From the NCBI GenBank assembly GCA_014190275.1, contig BJGE01000009.1, forward strand, positions 1 through 43,136: DNA of 43,136 nt. Reading direction: 5' to 3'. The translations under genes and the position numbers were made by a program. This DNA comes from Actinomycetes bacterium. GTDB taxonomy: Bacteria; Actinomycetota; Actinomycetes; S36-B12. The first letter of the stretch is position 1, and every line of letters starts with the position of its first letter. Below, one piece after another: positions 11,408 through 23,935 of this stretch. The notes beneath the pieces were generated by a model. It did not search any database. It had not been told where the DNA came from and worked only from the letters and a program-made list of their open reading frames with translations.

Positions 11408-11480
11408 GCGCCCGTAGCTCAACGGATAGAGCATCTGACTACGGATCAGAAGGTTAGGAGTTCGAATCTCTTCGGGCGCA
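11408..11480 (+). tRNA. tRNA-Arg (anticodon ACG)
   Basis: Acceptor arms GCGCCCG/CGGGCGC pair perfectly, with discriminator A and no encoded CCA. Anticodon stem TCTGA/TCAGA encloses CTACGGA, giving ACG. The A34 of this tRNA is the known substrate of TadA, also encoded in this window. An AT-rich gene block begins shortly after its 3' end. Confidence 0.96.
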
Positions 11481-11498
11481 CTCGTTTGAAGTCCCGGG

Positions 11499-11835: not shown

Positions 11836-11864
11836 AAAGCGGGGCTTTGACATTTGGAGGGCAC

Positions 11865-12491
11865 GTGTCAGATTCATTCGAAAACGCTGGTTACGGACAG
11901 GGCGAAGTGGGTTGGGGTAACCGCCCCGCCATTATCGCGGTGGATTTTCAAATGTCATTTTGTGATCCGAAGTTTGCTCTGGGCCGCAGCCAGCATGCCC
12001 AACGAGCAATTAAAAATGCGGCTCGCCTATTTCCGGCTGCTCGCGCAGTCGGCATCCCAATTATCCACACAGCAGTTGCTTGGGCCCACGACACGGAGTT
12101 TGCTCGCTGGAAAGTACCAGCATTGAGAGATATTCATCCAGGTTCGTACGAGGCTCAGATTCACCCAGATCTGTGGGATGACAATGATGTTTATATTTTG
12201 AAGCGGTTCCCTTCCGCATTCTTTGGCACCGACATGAGCAGTATTCTCACGACTAATGGAATTGACACGGTGCTCGTAACTGGGGTGACTTCTTCGGGTT
12301 GTGTTCGGGCGACCATAGTCGATTCCTTCTCGTACGGTTTCCGCACCATTGCAATTGACGACGCCTGTGGTGATCAAGATGCCGGACCACACGAAGCCAA
12401 CATGCAGGATGTGGGCCGTCGATACGCAGATGTGATTCAAACAGATGAAGCGATATCAAAACTCAAGACGCTGAATGCAATCGACTGCTAA
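11865..12491 (+). CDS. Isochorismatase-fold amidohydrolase (N-carbamoylsarcosine/maleamate amidase-like)
   Basis: A 208-residue cysteine hydrolase. The catalytic triad of the family is visible as Asp27 (IIAVDFQ), Lys113 (YILKRFPSAFFGTDM) and Cys146 (TSSGCVRATIVDS). The SAFFGTD and DACGDQDAGPHEANM segments match the N-carbamoylsarcosine/maleamate amidase branch rather than isochorismatase or nicotinamidase. It would release ammonia from a small amide. I start at the GTG at 11865, which has GGAGGG just upstream; the track's start at 11847 would precede the ribosome site. First gene of the island operon; its TAA overlaps the next ATG (TAATG). The real substrate is unknown. Confidence 0.88.
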   Translation: MSDSFENAGYGQGEVGWGNRPAIIAVDFQMSFCDPKFALGRSQHAQRAIKNAARLFPAARAVGIPIIHTAVAWAHDTEFARWKVPALRDIHPGSYEAQIHPDLWDDNDVYILKRFPSAFFGTDMSSILTTNGIDTVLVTGVTSSGCVRATIVDSFSYGFRTIAIDDACGDQDAGPHEANMQDVGRRYADVIQTDEAISKLKTLNAIDC

Positions 12492-13030
12492 TGAATCCGC
12501 GAGTGGCTTGTTTCACTGGTAGATTCCAGCCCTTCCATAACCAACACTTGGAAGTAGTAGAAGCTCTCAGTCACACATTTAAACGAATTATCATTGGCGT
12601 CACGAATCCAGATATATCGAAGTTACAAGCGCATAACGCAAGTCTGCATAGGCACACTGATGAAGCAAATCCTTTTACTTTTGAATCTAGAGTCAGAATA
12701 ATTAGAAAATCCCTTACTAAAATTAAAAAAGTAAGAATTGATATTTTTCCATTTTGTTTGGATTCTCCTAGCACTTGGAATGTCCCAGCAGAAACCGTTT
12801 TTGCGCTACGGATTTTTAGTCCATGGGAAGAGAACAAATTGGCACTCTTTGAGGCCGAAGGCTACAAGACCCTTTCCCTTACAGCACCAACTCAAAAGTT
12901 GTCAGCATCAGACATTCGTCAGTCATTAACTTCCAACGACGGTGACTGGAAGTCACTCGTTGCACTTCACGCAGTTGAGACCATATCCAACGAGTGGTCT
13001 GTTACCAACTCCTCAAAAGTGGGTACCTGA
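12491..13030 (+). CDS. NMN-adenylyltransferase-like nucleotidyltransferase
   Basis: A 179-residue cytosolic protein of the HxGH-type nucleotidyltransferase superfamily. It has GRFQPFHNQHLEVV at 10-23 (HxxH nucleotide-binding motif), NPFTFESRVRII as in archaeal-type NadM, and SASDIRQSL near the end, the family's ISxTxIR-like motif. NadM enzymes join NMN and ATP. Island location, rather than an NAD salvage locus, suggests a different acceptor; nucleotidylation of a phosphate or phosphonate-like intermediate is one possibility. Start and stop are tightly coupled to both neighbours. Confidence 0.85.
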   Translation: MNPRVACFTGRFQPFHNQHLEVVEALSHTFKRIIIGVTNPDISKLQAHNASLHRHTDEANPFTFESRVRIIRKSLTKIKKVRIDIFPFCLDSPSTWNVPAETVFALRIFSPWEENKLALFEAEGYKTLSLTAPTQKLSASDIRQSLTSNDGDWKSLVALHAVETISNEWSVTNSSKVGT

Positions 13031-13046
13031 ATTGAAGCCGGTACCA

Positions 13047-14408
13047 ATGTGGGATGACAGAGCTCCCTTGATCCTGATAACTTTTGATGGTCTTGGTGAT
13101 CGCCCAAGTGCGGAATTAGGTAATCGAACACCGCTCGAAGCGGCCAATACTCCGAATCTGGATGAACTGACTCGAATCGGAGTTTCGGGAATCCATCAAC
13201 CGTTTGGCCCTGGACGAGCCACGTCAAGTGAACGTAGCCACTGGGCGATGTTTGGCCAATCCCAGCCATTTCCGGGCCGAGCGCTTCTTGAGGCTATCGG
13301 AATGGGAATTGATATTCCCGCAGAGCGTCCACATTTTCACCTATCACTTCGTCCAGCAGTTCTTAAGAATGGGCAACTTCACGCGCTCGGAAGAGTAGGT
13401 ACTGACGATGCAAATGATTGCGTAGGTTTATTTGACGCACTTCGCGTCATGCCACACGAGTTGAATCCAGTGCTTCATCCGCTTCGTGTCGGTGAATGCA
13501 TTCTTGAGTCAGACGTACTTTCGTCGCACGATATAAGTGACAGCGATCCACTATTCGGTCATCTGCATCCCGTATTGCGACCGTTACCCCTGGAGTCAGC
13601 ACTTGACCAAGAATCGGCGCTTTTCTCAGCAGAGCTTATGACCAGTTGGATTAATTCAGCGGTTGAATTGCTACTCTCCCACCCAATCAATAAATCTCGA
13701 ATGGCTGATGAAAAGCCACAGCTCATTGCTCCGGTAACAAAGTGGGCCAGCAAAAAAACAGGGCTCAAGACTTTTGAACAATCAACCGGACTAAGCGGAG
13801 CAGCAGTCACAAGCTCCGCTCTTTATCGAGGACTGGCAGAAATCCTAGGTATGGCGCAGATTCATATCCCAAGTGACCTAGAAAATGTTGAAGCAGACTT
13901 TGAGGCTCGAATCAAGGCAGGACTGGAGTTAAGTAAAACCCATTCCTTTGTTCATATTCATACCAAGGTCACCGATGAAGCTGGCCACACTAAGCAGCCA
14001 AAGCTTAAGCAAGTGGTAATTGAAGGTCTGGATAGGGCCTGCAATCTACTGCCGGAATTATCAAAAAAAATAACCGTCGTACTCACTGGCGATCATGCGA
14101 CACCATCGACTGGAGGCGTTATGCATTCAGCCCATCCTACCTCTTTGATCTTGGCTGGGCCTCACGTTTATCCCGATGACGTTTCAACTTGCAGTGAGCG
14201 CTCACATAAATCTGGAGATCTTGGAACGATCACGGCGAGTGAAATATTGCCGATAATGTCGCATTACTCACATCGGGCTAGCTTTATCGGGCACGCGACG
14301 GGATGTTCCGAAACAATTTCACTACCAGATAATCCCGTCGCTCTAGATTTCTCTAAAACGAGAAACGATAATCAAGTAGACCGAAAAAGCAGAACAGGAA
14401 TGATATGA
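13047..14408 (+). CDS. Archaeal-type phosphoglycerate mutase (ApgM)-like, alkaline phosphatase superfamily
   Basis: About 453 residues. ApgM landmarks are ITFDGLGDRPSAE, TPLEAANTPNLDEL, GRALLEAIGMGI, TDEAGHTKQPK, LTGDHATPSTGG and HSAHPTSLILAGP, so the metal-binding Asp/His residues are kept. The segment that reads PGSDTxH in true ApgM is altered here to ATSSERSHWAMFG, so phosphoryl chemistry on another substrate is likely. It is somewhat longer than ApgM (about 400-410). The track's ORF starts at 12942 inside the previous gene; I chose the ATG at 13047, with TTG 13032 as alternative. The stop overlaps the next ATG. Homologues occur in phosphonate/phosphinate clusters (recalled, not searched). 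Confidence 0.82.
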   Translation: MWDDRAPLILITFDGLGDRPSAELGNRTPLEAANTPNLDELTRIGVSGIHQPFGPGRATSSERSHWAMFGQSQPFPGRALLEAIGMGIDIPAERPHFHLSLRPAVLKNGQLHALGRVGTDDANDCVGLFDALRVMPHELNPVLHPLRVGECILESDVLSSHDISDSDPLFGHLHPVLRPLPLESALDQESALFSAELMTSWINSAVELLLSHPINKSRMADEKPQLIAPVTKWASKKTGLKTFEQSTGLSGAAVTSSALYRGLAEILGMAQIHIPSDLENVEADFEARIKAGLELSKTHSFVHIHTKVTDEAGHTKQPKLKQVVIEGLDRACNLLPELSKKITVVLTGDHATPSTGGVMHSAHPTSLILAGPHVYPDDVSTCSERSHKSGDLGTITASEILPIMSHYSHRASFIGHATGCSETISLPDNPVALDFSKTRNDNQVDRKSRTGMI

Positions 14409-15667
14409 CTAGCAATGTCACGTCCCCGCTCGATATAGAACTACACACGCCGGCACATCTAAATGGCGTGATTTCCGAAGTTTCAGAACTCTATGAAAAT
14501 GAAGTGTTTCCGCGCGAACAGTTACTCGATCACCGATTGAGCGATCAGTCGAAGTACCTTGATGAAGATGGTCGTCTGCATCCTGACATCATCGCTGCCC
14601 GCCGGGAAATTATGGCTGCGGCCGGCGCAAAGAACATTTACAGCGCGCATCTGCCCGAGTCATTAGGCGGCAGGGGACTTGGGCGGGAAGACATGATCTA
14701 TGTCGAGGAAAAAGTCTACGGATATGGCGTGGGCTTGAACCCTGCCCTACTTTCATGGTCGGAAGGCGCAACGCCACGTTTGCTACATGCCCATGCGCAC
14801 CAAAAGGAGCAATTCACTGACCCATTAGTCAAAGGTCTAAAGACAAGTCTGCATGGCGTTACCGAAACTGGTGCCGGTTCAAATCTGTATGACATGAAAA
14901 CCAACGCGGTGCGCAAAGGCTCAGACTGGGTACTAAACGGCACTAAGGCCTACATCACAAATTATTTTGATGCCGATGTTGCCCAGGTTCTCGCGATCAC
15001 AAATCCTGAAGGCGGCCGCAAGTCCTTCACGTACTTCATGTTTGATACCAAAGAATATGGAGCAAGAGGCTACAAGATTGGAAAACTTTACCAAACCATG
15101 TTCGGTGACGGTTACACTGGCGAGATTCATTTCGAGGACATGGTGCTCCCGGATAGCGCGGTTCTTGGCGAAGTTAATGGTGGCTTCGACATCGCAGTCA
15201 TGTCGTTTAACTACACCCGAATGCGTCGGGCTGGCATGTGCTCGGGTTGGAATAAGTACCTGATTGAGAAGACACTTGAGCGTGTGAAGAATCGCATCGT
15301 CGGCGGTGAACCCCTTGGGGCAAAGCAAGGTATCCAGTGGATGATCGCGGACATGTATCTTGATTGGCAACAAACTCGTTCGCTGTCCCTTGATGTAGCG
15401 CGTGCGATCGATACGCCAGGACCTTGGTGGAATCTACCCCGTCCAAGTGATGAGGTGCGGCGGATTTGTGCGCTCAAACTAAGCAACGATGAATCTTTCT
15501 ACCGAGTAGCAGATCGCGCACTACAGATCCACGGTGGCTCTGGAGTCCTCCGAGACACTGACATAAACAAGTTGTTCCAAATCGCTCGAAACCTCCGGAT
15601 TCCTGGGGGTACCGATGAAGTACAACGCACTACCATCGCTGAGACCCTAGGCCTACGTTTCAATTAG
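14405..15667 (+). CDS. Acyl-CoA dehydrogenase homologue
   Basis: A 420-residue flavoprotein with the usual helical N-domain (HLPESLGGRGLG), mid beta-domain (GVTETGAGSN, WVLNGTKAYITN) and helical C-domain (ALQIHGGSGVLRD, IPGGTDEVQRTTIAETLGL). Normal family members desaturate an acyl-CoA and pass electrons to ETF. The Glu base of MCAD (YEGT motif) is PGGT here, and the alternative helix-G Glu seen in isovaleryl-CoA dehydrogenase also appears absent, so the reaction may differ. Start ATG overlaps the previous stop (ATGA). It is likely to act with the CoA-transferase in the same operon. Confidence 0.9.
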   Translation: MTSNVTSPLDIELHTPAHLNGVISEVSELYENEVFPREQLLDHRLSDQSKYLDEDGRLHPDIIAARREIMAAAGAKNIYSAHLPESLGGRGLGREDMIYVEEKVYGYGVGLNPALLSWSEGATPRLLHAHAHQKEQFTDPLVKGLKTSLHGVTETGAGSNLYDMKTNAVRKGSDWVLNGTKAYITNYFDADVAQVLAITNPEGGRKSFTYFMFDTKEYGARGYKIGKLYQTMFGDGYTGEIHFEDMVLPDSAVLGEVNGGFDIAVMSFNYTRMRRAGMCSGWNKYLIEKTLERVKNRIVGGEPLGAKQGIQWMIADMYLDWQQTRSLSLDVARAIDTPGPWWNLPRPSDEVRRICALKLSNDESFYRVADRALQIHGGSGVLRDTDINKLFQIARNLRIPGGTDEVQRTTIAETLGLRFN

Positions 15668-15675
15668 GAGTCACT

Positions 15676-17061
15676 ATGTCGGATCCAAAAACTTTGTCAC
15701 TCGAAATTGGAACTTGGGCAGAGTCGCTCGCAATAGTCGATGTGCCAAAGCATGTCCAAGACCAAGCACTGCTAAACATCCTTGATGCAGTTGGTATTGC
15801 GTTTGCGTCTACTAATTATGAATTTGCAACTCGTTCTATCGCTGCATCCGTTGCTTTGGGGTCAGGCCAGCGCGGTGCGATTGCTTGTTCTGAGCGGTTC
15901 ACTGTGCGCGATCAGGCAATGCTCAATGGGATCTTGATCCACGGTTTGGATTTTGATGACACCCACGTACCAGGCGTAATTCACGGAACCGCCAGCGCTC
16001 TACCTACGGCGATTGCTATCGCGGATGACCGTGAACTAAGTGGTAACGACTTGATCTTGGGTTTTCTAATCGCAGTAGAAATTGGGGCCCGAGTAGGTAC
16101 CGCTGCTAACGGCGGCTTCCATGCCCAAGGGTTCCACCCAACAGGTCTAGCTGGCGCATTTGGTGCGGCAACGGCAGCGGCAAAAATGTTGGGGCTGGAG
16201 GCGCATGGCATTTCCAGCGCACAAGGCATAGTTGGGTCCCTTGCATCAGGTTCAATGGAATTCCTCGAAACTGGAGCGTGGACTAAACGCCTTCACCCAG
16301 GATGGGCTGCCGTTGCGGGCATAACTGCGGCGGAACTCGCCAAAGCAAAGTTCGAGGCACCACCGGCCATCTACGAGGGTCGCTTTGGACTTTTTGCAGC
16401 CCACACCCCAGCGGCCCATGACCTAAAAATGGCTGCTGTCGCGGGAGACCTAGGAACATCGTGGGAATTACTGCGAGTTGCCATCAAGCCTTATGCCGCC
16501 TGCCACTTCACGCATGCCTGCATTGATATTGCGATTGCACTTGTAACTGAGAACAATTTAATGGCCTCGGACATCGAATCGGTTACTACCATCGTGCCGC
16601 CGCAAGTTGTGCCAGTTGTCTGTGAGCCAGCTCAGGCGAAATTAACCCCACGAAGCGATTATGATGCCAAATTCTCCTTACCATTCATTGTCGCAACTGC
16701 GATCTCAAAACGTCGATTTACCTTGGCTGATCTAGAAGATGATTGCTTGGTTGATCCGGAACTATTGGAATTAGCCGCAAAAGTTTCATACCAAAACGAC
16801 CCAAATCCAACATTCCCTAAGTACTTCCATGGTGAAGTAATTATTCAAACAAAAGACGGGCGCACGCTGCGCAAACGAGAAGACGTAAATCGGGGCGCTG
16901 ACACGCGTCCACTTGCTGCAAGTGAAGTCGAGACTAAGTTCCGAGACAATGTCGCTTTGGTGGGCGGGTCTGATGTTGCTGATCGAGTTCTTAATGCAGT
17001 TATGTCATTGCCAGGCACAAAGAACTCCCGTGATTTCGTCGAGGCACTAAGAGTCAGATGA
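15676..17061 (+). CDS. MmgE/PrpD-family protein
   Basis: A 461-residue protein of the family that includes 2-methylcitrate dehydratase, cis-aconitate decarboxylase and iminodisuccinate epimerase. Landmarks are GLDFDDTHVPGVIHGTASALPTAIA, FHAQGFHPTGLAGAFGAATAAA, KRLHPGWAAVAGITAAELA and KPYAACHFTHACID. Members handle small di- or tricarboxylic acids and need no metal. An AGGAG site lies before the ATG. Its stop overlaps the selD start. No citrate synthase or methylisocitrate lyase is nearby, so this is not a methylcitrate operon; the substrate is unknown. Confidence 0.9.
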   Translation: MSDPKTLSLEIGTWAESLAIVDVPKHVQDQALLNILDAVGIAFASTNYEFATRSIAASVALGSGQRGAIACSERFTVRDQAMLNGILIHGLDFDDTHVPGVIHGTASALPTAIAIADDRELSGNDLILGFLIAVEIGARVGTAANGGFHAQGFHPTGLAGAFGAATAAAKMLGLEAHGISSAQGIVGSLASGSMEFLETGAWTKRLHPGWAAVAGITAAELAKAKFEAPPAIYEGRFGLFAAHTPAAHDLKMAAVAGDLGTSWELLRVAIKPYAACHFTHACIDIAIALVTENNLMASDIESVTTIVPPQVVPVVCEPAQAKLTPRSDYDAKFSLPFIVATAISKRRFTLADLEDDCLVDPELLELAAKVSYQNDPNPTFPKYFHGEVIIQTKDGRTLRKREDVNRGADTRPLAASEVETKFRDNVALVGGSDVADRVLNAVMSLPGTKNSRDFVEALRVR

Positions 17062-18077
17062 AACGTGGGGTATCGACGGTGAGCCTGCGGGACTTTACTT
17101 CATGTGGTGGATGCGCAGCTAAAGCTGATGCATCCCTACTGTGGGCGCTTCGTTTCGCAGCAAGTAATCACCAAAATAGCGAGACTCTTATTGGCCTAGC
17201 TGAGCCAGATGATGCCGCAATTACTTTGCTCAATGAAACGACATCACTTATAACAACCGTCGATTTCTTTCCACCTGTGGTCAGTGATCCATATGAATAC
17301 GGTTATGTAAGTGCCCTAAATTCCCTGTCCGATATCTTCGCGATGGGAGGTTTGGCAAAGACAGCTTTGCTAATTTGTGGATTTCCAAAAGAAATTGATG
17401 ATTCGGAAATTGTTGCTTGCGTTTCCGGAGCGGCCCAAGCCTGTAAGGAGTCCGGAGTTGAAATCCTGGGTGGGCACACGGTACGTATCAGCGAACCCAT
17501 TTTTGGTTTGGCGGCAACCGGTTATGTGGATCCAAAACTCATCTGGCGCAAGACCGGAATGCAAAGTGAGGATCTACTTATGCTTTCTAAGCCACTTGGT
17601 GTTGGAGTGCTTCTATCGACCCGCACGGAAAACGATGAGGTAATTGCACTTGCTCAAATGAAAATCTCAAACCAAGTAGCCAGAAATTCGTTAGCCGCAC
17701 ATGGGACTGCAGTGCATGCAGTGACTGACATAACTGGATTTGGATTAATTGGGCATCTCAGCGAGATGCTAGGCGCGAGTGCGCTGGATGCAAAAGTTCA
17801 ATTGCCATCCCAAGCCGTCATTGCCCGAGCCCAAGAGCTATTCGACGCAGGGGTAAGAACCTCAGCAGATGGCCGTAATCGTGAGGTCTTAAACCGAGAA
17901 GTTTTAGGCGTAGATAGTAGCAACCTACAAGCGGCGCTTTTTGATCCACAAACAAATGGTGGTCTGTTGGCCGCTGTTGGTCCTTCCTCGGAGATTGAAC
18001 TCATTGAAGTTGGATTTATCACTGTAGGTAAAGTTGTAGCTGGCTCAGGGAAAATCGAAATCTTAAGTAACCAATAG
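17058..18077 (+). CDS. selD: Selenide, water dikinase (selenophosphate synthase) homologue
   Basis: A 339-residue ATPase of the PurM/SelD fold. Catalytic Cys19 and Lys22 sit in SCGGCAAKAD. Further SelD motifs are PDDAA, TTVDFFPPVVSDPYEYG, LSDIFAMGG, GGHTVRISEPIFGLAATG, KPLGVGVLL, TDITGFGLIGHLSEM and DPQTNGGLL. The usual GGTxRN segment is changed (RTSADGRN). SelD makes selenophosphate from selenide and ATP for selenocysteine, 2-selenouridine or selenosugars. No SelA, SelB, tRNA-Sec or SelU is seen. The start overlaps the previous stop (ATGA), so it belongs to this operon. A role in a selenium-containing metabolite is possible; another thiol or acid substrate is the alternative. Confidence 0.88.
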   Translation: MKRGVSTVSLRDFTSCGGCAAKADASLLWALRFAASNHQNSETLIGLAEPDDAAITLLNETTSLITTVDFFPPVVSDPYEYGYVSALNSLSDIFAMGGLAKTALLICGFPKEIDDSEIVACVSGAAQACKESGVEILGGHTVRISEPIFGLAATGYVDPKLIWRKTGMQSEDLLMLSKPLGVGVLLSTRTENDEVIALAQMKISNQVARNSLAAHGTAVHAVTDITGFGLIGHLSEMLGASALDAKVQLPSQAVIARAQELFDAGVRTSADGRNREVLNREVLGVDSSNLQAALFDPQTNGGLLAAVGPSSEIELIEVGFITVGKVVAGSGKIEILSNQ

Positions 18078-18092
18078 CAAACTAAAGGATAA

Positions 18093-19301
18093 ATGATGCT
18101 ACGCCCCTTAGAAGGAATCACCGTCCTCTCGCTTGAACAATTTGGGGCGGGGCCGTTTGGCACAGTGCACTTGGCTGACTTAGGTGCCCGAATAATAAAG
18201 ATCGAAGATCCAAGTTCAGGCGGTGACGTTGGCCGGTATGTTCCACCCTACGCACACGGAGAAGACTCATTATTTTTTGAGGCATTTAATCGGAATAAAG
18301 AATCAATTTCATTAGATCTGTCAAAGCCGACTGGAAGAGCAACTTTCGACGACCTAGTCAAGCAAAGTGATGCAGTTTATTCAAATTTACGAGGCGATGT
18401 CCCCGGGAAGTTAAAGATTACTTATGAAGACTTAAAGCACTTGAATCCGGCGATCGTTTGCTGCTCGCTGAGTGGTTTTGGAATGAGTGGTCCGCGCTCC
18501 AAGGAACCCGGATATGACTACATGTTGCAGGGTTTAGCCGGTTGGATGTCACTAACCGGGGAGCCTGATGGTCCACCCACAAAGACCGGCCTCTCCTTAG
18601 TTGACTTCTCTGGTGGATTCGTGGCGGCTTTGGCGCTTTTAAGCGGGATTCATGCAGCACGTCGAGATGGCGTTGGGATGGATTGTGATGTCTCGCTATA
18701 TGACACTGCACTGTCGATGACAAGCTACATTGGTGCTTGGCATCTATCGGGTGACCACGAGCCAATCAGATATTCTCACTCCGCTCATCCATCACTGGTT
18801 CCGTTTCAGGTATTCAAGACGAAGGATGATTGGATTGTTATCGGGTGCGCAAAAGAAAAATTCTACGAACGCTTATGTGAAGTAATTAAGCGCCCAGATT
18901 TAGTTACCAATCTTGAATTTTCCAACTTCACGGTCCGGTACGAAAACCGTAATGCTTTAGTTTCTCAACTTGATGAAATCTTTAAGACTAGAACTACAGC
19001 AGAATGGCTATCTGATTTGGTCCCAGCTGGGGTTCCAAGTGCTCCCGTAAACACCATCGAGCAAGCCTTCAAGGAAGAACACACTATTGCGCGGCAGATG
19101 ATTGCCCATAGTGAGCATGAGTATTTTGGAAAACTTCGAACCCCGGCCTCGCCAGTTAACGTGGGCCCCAAACGACAAACTTACCAGCGCGCGCCAAAGC
19201 GTGGCGAGCACACGATTTCAGTTCTTAAGGAACTTCTGGATTTGAGTGATGAGCAAATTGAGGCTCTTGAGGCATCCGGAGCATTTGGGAAACCCAAGTG
19301 A
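18093..19301 (+). CDS. Class III CoA-transferase (CaiB/BaiF family)
   Basis: A 402-residue protein with the family's N-terminal VLSLEQFGAGPFGTVHLADLGA (split in two by the fold), EAFNRNKESISLDL, and the catalytic Asp about residue 142 in PGYDYMLQGLAGWMSLTG. It moves CoA from a donor thioester to a carboxylic acid without ATP. AAAGG lies just before two adjacent ATGs (18093 and 18096). Last gene of the tight seven-gene run. It probably makes the CoA ester used by the acyl-CoA dehydrogenase homologue, which is inference. Confidence 0.92.
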   Translation: MMLRPLEGITVLSLEQFGAGPFGTVHLADLGARIIKIEDPSSGGDVGRYVPPYAHGEDSLFFEAFNRNKESISLDLSKPTGRATFDDLVKQSDAVYSNLRGDVPGKLKITYEDLKHLNPAIVCCSLSGFGMSGPRSKEPGYDYMLQGLAGWMSLTGEPDGPPTKTGLSLVDFSGGFVAALALLSGIHAARRDGVGMDCDVSLYDTALSMTSYIGAWHLSGDHEPIRYSHSAHPSLVPFQVFKTKDDWIVIGCAKEKFYERLCEVIKRPDLVTNLEFSNFTVRYENRNALVSQLDEIFKTRTTAEWLSDLVPAGVPSAPVNTIEQAFKEEHTIARQMIAHSEHEYFGKLRTPASPVNVGPKRQTYQRAPKRGEHTISVLKELLDLSDEQIEALEASGAFGKPK

Positions 19302-19502
19302 AAGCCTGGGACGGCGTCGCTTGCGACCCACCTCCGCCACCCCACAAACAAAGGGGCCGAAGAACCAGTGCTGCAGTAGATCGACAACCCAATAGTTTGC
19401 GAGTTCGCGGTGCTCAAAGGGGCACCATGCTTGATCAATGCCGAAGTCGATTTGGGCATAGGCCAAGAGCACGTCCCATCGAGAATAATTTAGATCAGGC
19501 AC
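19218..19502 (-). CDS. Possible antisense or remnant ORF, unknown
   Basis: The minus strand is open from a stop near 19571 to 19218, with GTG at 19502. The part outside the CoA-transferase gene reads like a protein (NYSRWDVLLAYAQ, FGIDQAWCPFEHREL). The part inside that gene is a shadow. I know no matching family and see no ribosome site. It may be the remnant of a gene interrupted when the island was assembled, or chance. Confidence 0.2.
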   Translation of the reverse strand: MPDLNYSRWDVLLAYAQIDFGIDQAWCPFEHRELANYWVVDLLQHWFFGPFVCGVAEVGRKRRRPRLSLGFPKCSGCLKSLNLLITQIQKFLKN

Positions 19503-19533
19503 GCCCTGTTGAGTTAAAAGTATCGATGCGACA

Positions 19534-19947
19534 ATGTTGATGGCCGTACTCCGCCGGTTAGCGGATCACCGCAAGGTTCGGCGACAGGTTTACACTGCCC
19601 TAGAGCCTGCGGGTTGGATCGCAATAGAAATACGCGGCAGTGGAAGCGTAGCCAAGACCTCGGGGTTATTACCCAAAACTGATCAAAACATTAAATCCCC
19701 AGACTGTTATTACGCAAACCTCACCACAAGAAGAGATCTTCAAAAAGTGGCTGGATTAATTGATATTGAAGTGAGTCGTCGCCCCCACCTAACTCTCCTA
19801 AGTAGTAAGGACACGCCTCCAACTCATTCGCGGACACTCGTCTTCCGCGAGTGGGACGCTGATCAGATCCGCAAGAAGTCCTATTTACTGACCGGTCATA
19901 CTCTTGATTTTGTCCGGCTTGAGGTAGGGCCATCAAGGCCTCAATGA
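19534..19947 (+). CDS. Hypothetical protein upstream of GT20 gene, 137 residues
   Basis: I recognise no family. It is a basic soluble protein without signal peptide or hydrophobic segment. Composition is AT-rich like the island. It begins after a 232-bp gap from the CoA-transferase and ends four bases before the GTG of the GT20 gene, which suggests co-transcription with it. There is no strong ribosome site, and start codons (ATG at 19534 or 19540) are uncertain. Confidence that it is translated is moderate. Confidence 0.5.
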   Translation: MLMAVLRRLADHRKVRRQVYTALEPAGWIAIEIRGSGSVAKTSGLLPKTDQNIKSPDCYYANLTTRRDLQKVAGLIDIEVSRRPHLTLLSSKDTPPTHSRTLVFREWDADQIRKKSYLLTGHTLDFVRLEVGPSRPQ

Positions 19948-19951
19948 TCCG

Positions 19952-21328
19952 GTGACCAAAAGTGACCTAAGGATTAGCGTTCTATCAAGACGGGCGCCGA
20001 TTCGTTTTGGAAGCGGATCGGCGCCGTCAGTTGAACACGTTGGGGGACTAACTCGGGTTTTACCTGCCCTTGCTGAATTCGCCCACATCAATTGGTTTGC
20101 TTTTGCCTCAGATGGTCAAGGATCAATCCCCGGTAATTATTCGTACTCGGAGATAGCGCACCAAGTGCTTCGAAACGAAATAAACATCTCTTTAGTTAAG
20201 GTGAATGACGAATCTTTAAATCTAGGTGATTGGCTGTGTGCGACGATTTTTTGGCCACTACTCCATGACCTAGAGATTCCAAAGATAGGTGCCGCAAAAC
20301 TTGATAGCAGCCTTGCAGCCATCGCGGAGTCGAGCTCTGCCCTTGCCCATGCCTCTGTAGAGTCTGAGGCTTCAGGTTTTTTTGTTAATGACTTCCAACT
20401 CTCCCAAGTGCCTTTGGCTCTGCGGGCCAGCGGAAAGCGTGAACCTATAACCTTCTTTTTGCACACCCCCTGGCCAAAAACCATGCCGAGCAACCCAACC
20501 ACGTTGAAATTACTGAAGTTTCTAGCAACCGGAATGCTGGCAGCAAACGTTATTGAATTCCAAACGAAGCATGATTTGTTGGGGTTTCAGGAATTCACAG
20601 CTCGGTATTTTTCACTCGAGGCAACCGGGGCTCTATTACGAGTTAATCCTGTGTCGGTTGATTACTCAAGATTGCAGAATCTAGCGCAGGGAAAAGATTT
20701 GGTAACGAGCCTTGAGCGGAATGATATTAGTTTTGTGCATATTGCACGCAGCGATCCAGTAAAGAACACCGCGGCGGTCATCGACGCTTTCACGCAGGTC
20801 TTTCAGGCTCGGATTCAATCTGGATATCGCATATATTTAGATTTATTCATTGTCCCCTCCAGACAGCAATGGCCGGAGTATCAGCACTTATTTAATGAGA
20901 TCCTCCGACAGGTCGAAGTCGCTAATGAAGAACTGAGCATCCATCAAAAGGATGCCATCAGATTGCGTATCGGAAACGATCACCAAAATGCAGTTAGGGC
21001 GCTAACTCGATATGACTACTTACTGGTTTGCTCAGTTGCTGACGGGCTGAATCTAGTTGTTAAGGAAGGCGCTATTTTGAATCAACGTAATGGCGTAATT
21101 ATAAGTACGCCTAAAGTCGGCGCAATGGCAGAGTTGGGTGATTTCTGTGTAATTGCAAGGGACTCCAGTGAAGCTAATATTGTGGCGGCAATAAAGTGTG
21201 CGATGAATTTAGATCCTGCAATTCGGGTCTCCATGTCACAAAAGCTTAGAAATCAAGTGAAGGAATACGACTTAAGTCACTGGGCAAGGTCCGTGGTTGC
21301 TAATTTTGACCTCAAGGGACAGGCCTAA
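19952..21328 (+). CDS. GT20-family glycosyltransferase (trehalose-6-phosphate-synthase-like)
   Basis: A 458-residue protein with the GT-B fold of OtsA. Counterparts of OtsA motifs are GGLTRVLPAL, VNDFQLSQVPLALR, ITFFLHTPWP (about 167), IEFQTKHDLLGFQ, HIARSDPVKN (about 262; Arg and Lys at the OtsA spacing) and SVADGLNLVVKEG (about 362). These bind the nucleotide sugar donor. The acceptor side is less conserved, so trehalose-6-phosphate need not be the product; glucosylglycerol-phosphate, valienol-type or sulfur/selenium glycosides are alternatives. No trehalose phosphatase is present. A GTG start is used. It is the last gene of the AT-rich island. Confidence 0.85.
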   Translation: MTKSDLRISVLSRRAPIRFGSGSAPSVEHVGGLTRVLPALAEFAHINWFAFASDGQGSIPGNYSYSEIAHQVLRNEINISLVKVNDESLNLGDWLCATIFWPLLHDLEIPKIGAAKLDSSLAAIAESSSALAHASVESEASGFFVNDFQLSQVPLALRASGKREPITFFLHTPWPKTMPSNPTTLKLLKFLATGMLAANVIEFQTKHDLLGFQEFTARYFSLEATGALLRVNPVSVDYSRLQNLAQGKDLVTSLERNDISFVHIARSDPVKNTAAVIDAFTQVFQARIQSGYRIYLDLFIVPSRQQWPEYQHLFNEILRQVEVANEELSIHQKDAIRLRIGNDHQNAVRALTRYDYLLVCSVADGLNLVVKEGAILNQRNGVIISTPKVGAMAELGDFCVIARDSSEANIVAAIKCAMNLDPAIRVSMSQKLRNQVKEYDLSHWARSVVANFDLKGQA

Positions 21329-22858: not shown

Positions 22859-23935
22859 CTAGGAGCGGTCGCGGTAGATGACCGGGGGCGTGTCACGAAA
22901 TCTCGAGTTCGCCCACAGCTGGTTGCCGTCTTGGGTGGTGAACCCGGTGAGAGTCGGGCGCACTCCGTCGAAGAATGCCGTTGATGGCGACTCCATGAGC
23001 AGGGCCCACTCGCGCTTGAGCAAGTGCTCCTGCAATTGCCCTTCAACGTATCGATTATGAGTACCAACCGCCATGAAGCGCACCTTTGACTCAATCAAAT
23101 CGGTGCCCGGCAAGATAACTTCTAACTCCATGCCCTGTAGGTCAACATGGAGCAGGTCGGTTGACTCGTCGCTTCCAAGGAGTGACCCCAGGGTCACGGT
23201 GGGGACGTCAAAGTGCTCAAGATGGGCGCCGCGATAGTCCATCTCCGGTGTCACTTCTTCATTGACGGCGCCGCCCATATCTCCGTCATCAAGTACGGGG
23301 AAGCGCAAAGTGGTAAGTGTTGCCCAGCCGGCGGCCTGAACCACCTGCAACTCCGCCGTGCTTGTTGCGAGTGCAGCCGCAATTTCAACCGAACTCCCGC
23401 TGATGAGTTCGGCCTGCACGCCGTTATCGGCAGCGTGCTGCAGGCACCAGGTCGCGCGCAGTGGGTCGGCTTCGACCGCTATCCCCGATGCGCGCTTACC
23501 TTGTCGTCGCGCCACCACGATGCCCATCACAGCCCAAGGCGCCCACCCGGCACCAACCTCAACAACTCGGTAGGTCTCCTTTTCGCTGCTAAGTGAGATT
23601 GCTAAACCGACGTACTCCTCGGCCTCGGACCGGTAACCATCACTTGGCACCGGGATGCGGCTCCTAGTGGTGCCCGCGAATCGAGCGGGCGCCCACGGCA
23701 ACATCGCAATGCGGGTCCGGATCCCGGCCCAATCAACGCAAAAGACGCCTTCATTGTCGGGAAGACCGGCATTCCCTGGCAGCATAGGTGCGCGTAGCGT
23801 TTCTAGGATTTCCGGTACCTGGGCCGGGTAGACGGGTAGGTGCAGTCCATTGCCATACATCACGGGCGTAGCTGTAGCTGGGGCAGCGGTCGCGACTTGA
23901 TCGGTCGTTGCCGCCTTGGCCCACGGCTTGCGCAT
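22859..23935 (-). CDS. FkbM-family methyltransferase
   Basis: A 358-residue protein. After an N-terminal region of about 100 residues it has a SAM-binding motif (VVEVGAGWAPWAVMG), then the FkbM signature DLLHVDLQGMELEVILPG and VGTHNRYVEGQLQEHL. Family members O-methylate sugars or small hydroxyl acceptors. The track's ORF from 24154 reads antisense into the ABC-F gene; the ATG at 23935, with a TACGGT box seven bases upstream, is the sensible start. It is divergent from the ABC-F gene with only 25 bp between start codons. The acceptor is unknown. Confidence 0.85.
   Translation of the reverse strand: MRKPWAKAATTDQVATAAPATATPVMYGNGLHLPVYPAQVPEILETLRAPMLPGNAGLPDNEGVFCVDWAGIRTRIAMLPWAPARFAGTTRSRIPVPSDGYRSEAEEYVGLAISLSSEKETYRVVEVGAGWAPWAVMGIVVARRQGKRASGIAVEADPLRATWCLQHAADNGVQAELISGSSVEIAAALATSTAELQVVQAAGWATLTTLRFPVLDDGDMGGAVNEEVTPEMDYRGAHLEHFDVPTVTLGSLLGSDESTDLLHVDLQGMELEVILPGTDLIESKVRFMAVGTHNRYVEGQLQEHLLKREWALLMESPSTAFFDGVRPTLTGFTTQDGNQLWANSRFRDTPPVIYRDRS

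Follow-up and report, generated by a model that had tools for sequence, protein, structure and literature searches.

The window, i.e., the whole stretch of DNA that was analysed, comprises 43,136 nt from the genome of an uncultured S36-B12 actinobacterium (Actinomycetota; GCA_014190275.1, contig BJGE01000009.1, positions 1-43,136, forward strand) and contains a gene for selenide, water dikinase (SelD) within the following gene cluster:

11408-11481, + strand: tRNA-Arg, left edge of the low-GC island that bears the cluster
11847-12491, + strand: isochorismatase-fold (amidohydrolase-like) protein (PF00857), a frequent partner
12491-13030, + strand: NMNAT-like nucleotidyltransferase (PF01467), a core partner
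12942-14408, + strand: phosphoglycerate-mutase/PhpG-like enzyme of the alkaline-phosphatase superfamily (apgM and PhpG matches, motifs), a core partner
14405-15667, + strand: ACAD-fold flavoprotein (both usual catalytic glutamates missing, Cys279 invariant), a core partner
15676-17061, + strand: MmgE/PrpD-family protein (PF03972/PF19305), accessory to the lineage of the window and kept in related loci
17058-18077, + strand: orphan SelD (TIGR00476, active-site columns, the sole genomic SelD over the cut-off)
18093-19301, + strand: family III CoA-transferase (PF02515), accessory, conserved in the clade of the window
19298-19947, + strand: disrupted SAM methyltransferase gene (frame change in tblastn)
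19952-21328, + strand: GT20 (trehalose-phosphate-synthase-like) glycosyltransferase (PF00982), accessory, also found in genome G002 and in Burkholderiaceae loci

Regarding the PhpG-like frame, a comparison of start codons has shown better agreement with the homologues for a start at 13032 than at 12942. The original prediction had described SelD as translationally coupled to both of its neighbours, which has held on the MmgE/PrpD side, where the genes overlap by 4 nt, but not on the side of the CoA-transferase, which follows after a gap of 15 nt. The methyltransferase gene matches residues 1-95 of its homologues in one frame and 98-237 in another, with the shift located by tblastn near 19514-19519, and intact homologues of 238-242 aa are present in related loci; a sequencing error and real decay would look the same here. 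The cluster starts 366 nt past the tRNA-Arg gene and has a GC content of 48.9%, compared with 60.7% and 60.2% in its flanks. A 20-nt near-repeat (11472-11491, overlapping the tRNA-Arg 3' end, and 22954-22973; 85% identity, 12 nt exact) brackets this island, a weak sign of possible att sites. Since the window SelD shares 75-79% identity with SelDs of another family and ∼40% with those of two genus mates, a transfer of the cluster would fit, mis-binning of the window contig being the alternative.

The SelD gene encodes 339 aa and matches TIGR00476 over its full length (E = 1.4e-82, 277.4 bits vs a cut-off of 125). In a profile alignment with E. coli SelD (PDB 3u0o), the protein is covered over its whole length, and its Cys19 and Lys22, the retention of which had been predicted, correspond to Cys17 and Lys20 of E. 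coli and are both kept together with the other active-site columns that were checked. At the E. coli columns 17, 20, 51, 68, 87, 91, and 227 the window protein carries C, K, D, D, N, D, and D, and the residues D51, D68, N87, D91, and D227 have been found conserved in all 65 SelD sequences compared. By these columns and the score, the gene at 17058-18077 encodes a genuine SelD whose active site is intact. Position 17 (E. coli numbering) is occupied by Cys or, in a few of the 65 sequences, by a stop codon; the in-frame stop, observed in the SelD genes of loci L122, L145, L146, L171, and L178, probably stands for Sec. In IMG/VR, a scan with the window SelD has found no relatives.

The genome of the window (129 contigs, 2.25 Mb, 96.8% complete) holds no second SelD over the cut-off, and genome-wide family searches have found no selA, no selU/ybbB, no selB over its cut-off, and no tRNA-Sec over its cut-off. 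Neither the selenocysteine trait (selA, selB, and tRNA-Sec) nor the selenouridine trait, which is judged on selU/ybbB, has thus been found in this genome. Candidates that scored best have been rejected: the top selB match (197 bits over residues 1-262 of a 422-aa frame) has been read as EF-Tu, and the two best tRNA-Sec candidates, both inside the window, are tRNA-Ser genes. What had been stated for the window, namely that selA, selB, tRNA-Sec, and a 2-selenouridine synthase are not visible, thus extends to the whole genome, in which neither a complete Sec or SeU system nor another selD that could feed one has been found. In nine carriers, the genome of the window included, YqeB, on which the YqeB/YqeC trait was judged, does not occur over its cut-off, and the same holds for SenB (TIGR04348; best score in the genome of the window 33 bits vs 300). 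With no selA or selU, and with no selB, tRNA-Sec, YqeB, or SenB over the cut-offs, the orphan status of the window SelD is real within the limits of a genome that is ∼97% complete.

SelD without SelA or SelU has been described as the hallmark of the selenium-dependent molybdenum hydroxylase trait (PMC2276186), with which an orphan SelD beside nucleotide-handling partners has features in common. As a variant of this trait, the cluster could provide an enzyme with a selenium cofactor or with labile selenium and make no free metabolite, but this is improbable in view of the missing YqeB in the nine carriers and of the annotated cluster genes, among which no molybdenum hydroxylase gene is found. 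Genomes with an orphan SelD have been noticed before, and an unknown trait has been suspected (Lin et al., PMC5322559) or predicted to be SelD-based (Peng et al. 2016, PMC5029168), where three neighbour families have been flagged, i.e., isochorismatase-like, ABC ATPase, and cysteine-desulfurase-like genes.

Within the order, SelD relatives (E of 1e-37 or better) occur in 22 of the 166 genomes searched, and SelA is absent in 21 of these, i.e., in the genome of the window and 20 others. Only G004 has selA, which lies ∼5 kb away from selD within one contig; no module genes are nearby, and this genome is of the usual Sec type. Across the neighbourhoods examined, loci of two families share the gene order isochorismatase, NMNAT-like, PhpG-like, ACAD, PrpD, SelD, (CoA-transferase), methyltransferase, (GT20), and the distant G002 shows isochorismatase, NMNAT, PhpG-like, ACAD, SelD, and GT20 genes in a rearranged form without PrpD. 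Sugar-type ABC transporter genes, an MFS transporter, and a second ACAD border the related loci, joined in some of them by a carbon-nitrogen hydrolase or a PDH-E1-like gene.

In a reverse test, named bacterial and archaeal genomes were scanned with the alignment of the PhpG-like protein alone, so that SelD was not part of the query. From 80 PhpG-like loci obtained, 57 carry the module type of the protein, and these have an NMNAT-like gene within 3 kb in 55 cases, the core ACAD within 6 kb in 53, an isochorismatase-fold relative within 8 kb in 34, and SelD within 8 kb in 27; of the four module loci that lack ACAD, two are cut by contig ends, as is one of the two that lack NMNAT. The carriers include Pseudonocardia, among them P. 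dioxanivorans, Actinomycetospora, Saccharopolyspora, Methylobacterium, a Burkholderiaceae MAG, and a Chloroflexi MAG. The PhpG-like gene is also located on five Rhodococcus plasmids, four of which have been inspected and show TetR, ACAD, selD, NMNAT, and an alkaline-phosphatase-family protein (AP), with 4-nt overlaps at all three junctions of ACAD-SelD-NMNAT-AP. Fusions of core genes were looked for in single ORFs of the loci examined, and none has been seen. The MmgE/PrpD and CoA-transferase genes next to SelD were considered as the functional key and rejected, since the Rhodococcus core has neither and G002 likewise lacks PrpD. By gene content, the system is defined by its NMNAT-like, PhpG-like, and ACAD-like partners, and MmgE/PrpD and CoA-transferase belong to the lineage of the window; pathway-linked SelD homologues, as had been envisaged, do exist and are conserved across phyla together with these three partners.

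SelD is present in all 30 module genomes tested, and each of the eight examined with an in-module SelD has a second SelD elsewhere. In the family of P. dioxanivorans (250 genomes), SelD has been found in 173 genomes and the module in 24, all 24 among the 173, which corresponds to a hypergeometric probability of 8.5e-5 with kinship ignored, though the genomes are not independent. In a tree of 65 SelD sequences, the module SelDs fall into two supported clades, as the proposed tree test had called for, apart from the further SelDs that these genomes carry: the clade of the window (17 rows, support 100/99), and a second one (13 rows, 100/99) with Pseudonocardia, Saccharopolyspora, Methylobacterium, the Rhodococcus plasmids, and G002, for which the mixture of classes implies transfer. 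Three SelDs of Desulfobacteraceae and Oleimmundimicrobium, as well as the separate SelDs of the module genomes, are placed outside both clades. The alteration of the GGTxRN-equivalent segment, from which a changed acceptor had been suggested, is real and tracks these clades, with RTSADxRN and kin in that of the window and APDGSxRT in the second, the separate actinobacterial SelDs having mostly PGG[ST]xRN; the segment is a clade mark and does not, taken alone, establish a changed acceptor. One may still regard SelD as an ordinary passenger that serves selenocysteine or selenouridine synthesis and lies in the cluster by coincidence, given how common it is in actinobacteria (173 carriers among the 250 genomes from a single family). 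The lack of selA, selU, and tRNA-Sec, the conservation of the neighbours across phyla, and the dedicated SelD clades make this highly improbable.

At the two positions which we take to hold the catalytic glutamate of ACADs (the IYEGT site and the isovaleryl-CoA-dehydrogenase site), the core ACADs carry IPGGT or IPAGT and T or R, respectively, and thus neither glutamate, and the second ACAD that flanks related loci has IYEGT. Because both usual glutamates are missing, the core ACAD is probably not an ordinary acyl-CoA dehydrogenase. Its Cys279 is invariant within GMC[AS]GW, and a fold model (pLDDT 71, nine sequences) has confirmed the ACAD fold and nothing beyond. The NMNAT-like protein keeps the GRFQPFHxxH and SxxxIR motifs and shows an invariant TNPD...S.HRH...NP segment; its closest solved structures are archaeal NMN adenylyltransferases, which profile comparison marks as fold-level kin, and its scores lie below both NMN adenylyltransferase cut-offs (52.9 bits vs 127 and 51.2 vs 181.2). 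NAD salvage by a nicotinamidase and an NMNAT has been considered and rejected, as both proteins score well below the cut-offs of the NAD pathway and SelD would be left unexplained. The PhpG-like enzyme reaches 232.7 bits with apgM (TIGR00306), a member of the same superfamily with a cut-off of 320, and 152.7 bits with PhpG (NF038358; cut-off 545). It keeps the Ser, Asp, and His motifs for the nucleophile and metal site of archaeal-type phosphoglycerate mutase, with SDTAHL replaced by SERSHW, and its SSERSHW and TKW segments are invariant.

Taking into account that the SelD operon recurs in distant bacteria, with a related archaeal form, and that no known selenium-using system is found in the genome, an undescribed route of selenium into a small molecule is probable. 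We propose that the window SelD serves, with good probability, a dedicated pathway towards a small selenometabolite or cofactor and not towards selenocysteine or selenouridine, and a dedicated selenometabolite pathway as such appears quite likely; the intact SelD, the missing known selenium user, and the conserved core, all read from sequence, support this. In a first step, SelD would convert selenide and ATP to selenophosphate, which its sequence strongly supports. The NMNAT-like protein may then use an NTP to activate selenophosphate or a derived acid as a nucleotidyl anhydride, modelled on its superfamily relative PhpF acting on phosphonoformate. The PhpG-like enzyme, via its serine nucleophile and two-metal site, could pass the activated group to an acceptor or, alternatively, free selenium from a P-Se bond. 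The ACAD-fold flavoprotein, devoid of the usual catalytic base, might finally perform a redox or C-Se bond step other than standard dehydrogenation. Amidohydrolase, PrpD, CoA-transferase, methyltransferase, and GT20 in the lineage of the window, and the ABC and MFS transporters of its relatives, would tailor or move the product. That the chemistry follows exactly this order is rather doubtful.

Several observations run counter to the proposed selenium pathway. SelD lies outside the module in about half of the module loci, which would consequently have to share the other SelD of the cell; the PhpG-like protein scores higher on the general apgM model than on PhpG; a catabolic operon would likewise be compatible with the ACAD-like and CoA-transferase genes; and the window's own methyltransferase gene is broken. 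A further reading assigns the cluster to selenium detoxification, in which excess selenide is methylated or glycosylated and then exported, and draws on a methyltransferase with arsenite methyltransferases among its matches, on the GT20, ABC, and MFS genes of related loci, and on the mobile setting on plasmids and in an island. With a minimal four-gene Rhodococcus core that has neither methyltransferase nor transporter, and with the disrupted methyltransferase of the window, this reading is very improbable.

The proposed selenium pathway shares single features with several known systems. Selenoneine and ovoselenol have been reviewed as newly characterised bacterial selenometabolites (May 2026, PMC13188914), and in their pathways SelD likewise feeds a biosynthetic operon outside selenoprotein synthesis; unlike these, the nine carriers have no SenB over the cut-off, and the core of the module consists of NMNAT-like, PhpG-like, and ACAD-like proteins. 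The PhpF/PhpG step of phosphinothricin biosynthesis similarly pairs a PF01467 nucleotidyltransferase, which in PhpF handles unusual phosphorus chemistry (PMC6697681), with a phosphoglycerate-mutase-like enzyme, whereas the PhpG-like protein stays at 153 bits vs the PhpG cut-off of 545 and has SelD and an ACAD-like protein as partners; for the chemistry of PhpG, no primary paper has been found in the literature outside subscription. Recruitment of a phosphoglycerate-mutase-family enzyme to unusual element chemistry in actinomycetes is also seen with BsnM/BsnN of bisenarsan (BsnN being the family member, PMC12159101), although there the element is arsenic, an EPSP-synthase homologue takes part, and the comparison with the module is by description and not by sequence. 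Another close system is the trait of Peng et al. (2016, PMC5029168), which likewise concerns orphan SelDs, including those of a Methylobacterium and of actinobacteria. As in the relatives of the window, these have neighbours of the isochorismatase-like and ABC ATPase families, in agreement with the window-type clusters, whereas the ACAD, NMNAT, and PhpG-like genes and a conserved operon are not named in the accessible text. The four-gene core of ACAD, SelD, NMNAT-like, and PhpG-like proteins is probably the core of this trait.

On Halobaculum plasmids, ACAD, AP, a 472-aa 'hypothetical' protein, and NMNAT have been found in one row, and the 472-aa protein is related to SelD (NF038049, E = 1.4e-36; selD, E = 1.1e-6), with a CGCAGK motif that resembles the SelD active site. 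On a Halorussus plasmid, another NF038049 relative adjoins an NMNAT-like gene. In the Halobaculum module, NF038049 (archaeal, PMC4210487) thus fills the SelD slot, yet the bacterial module proteins are true SelDs by score, and the haloarchaeal ones reach 126 and 173 bits, below the NF038049 cut-off of 250. The two haloarchaeal genes are annotated as 'hypothetical' (L186:7538-8956 and L189:5659-6996), and outside these cases the link of NF038049 is with Crenarchaeota. In three MAGs, two of Desulfobacteraceae and one of Oleimmundimicrobium, a more remote PhpG-like relative (32-36%) has been found in the vicinity of SelD, and one such locus examined also holds YedE, YedF, and an Se/S carrier protein.

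Because of this archaeal SelD-related protein, the strongest rival to a selenium pathway is a switch of element, in which selenium would not be the real substrate and the module would both make thiophosphate (or some other activated phosphate) and use it in a sulfur pathway. NF038049 is named 'SelD-related putative sulfur metabolism protein', a SelD-like family linked to sulfur metabolism has been proposed for Crenarchaeota (PMC4210487), and the acceptor-side GGTxRN motif is altered in both module clades; as the Halobaculum operon uses an NF038049 member, the core chemistry might be used for sulfur in addition to selenium. A sulfur pathway is nevertheless unlikely, as the SelDs of the bacterial module score far above the SelD cut-off with all of the checked active-site columns retained, all module genomes tested contain SelD, and a PhpG-like relative is grouped with the selenium genes YedE and YedF. 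It is conceivable, if tentative, that both forms belong to one cross-domain chalcogen pathway. Selenophosphate, or thiophosphate in the case of haloarchaea, would there be activated by nucleotidyl transfer and passed on by a phosphatase-fold enzyme to yield a new selenium product or cofactor. Such a route would be unlike selenocysteine, selenouridine, the molybdenum-hydroxylase cofactor, and Se-glycosyl transfer.

Orphan SelDs have hinted at an unknown selenium use since at least 2015-2016 (PMC5322559, PMC5029168), with the enzyme set left undefined, and in the literature outside subscription no description of the ACAD/SelD/NMNAT/PhpG-like core has been found. Since this core recurs in hosts that are in culture, namely on Rhodococcus plasmids and in Pseudonocardia dioxanivorans and Methylobacterium, and has its SelD-related form in Halobaculum, this selenium use is directly testable. 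If the selenium reading is right, one more selenium metabolite would be added, along with an enzymatic means of dealing with selenophosphate.

Some minor features have been observed around the distant loci. An unannotated family of ∼270 aa (EIAGRDS...GTE.G...GCHLYLH; L145:3318-4145, L146:8187-9020, L122:9149-9967) adjoins the PhpG-like relative in six loci, three of which contain SelD, and occupies the NMNAT slot in the Desulfobacteraceae and Oleimmundimicrobium loci; its GRDS segment reads like a PP-loop, so that it may be a PP-loop enzyme. A double-cubane-cluster reductase family and an activator-like ATPase lie near the PhpG-like relative in L124, L131, and L146, the reductase call applying to L146 only. 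Three cluster-bearing MAG records (L080, L120, L128) are titled Bifidobacterium breve and probably mislabelled. In L187 and L188 (plasmids of Rhodococcus opacus and Enterococcus gilvus), the NMNAT-like gene stands, in a stretch without SelD, beside one for a PEP/pyruvate-binding (PPDK-like) protein.
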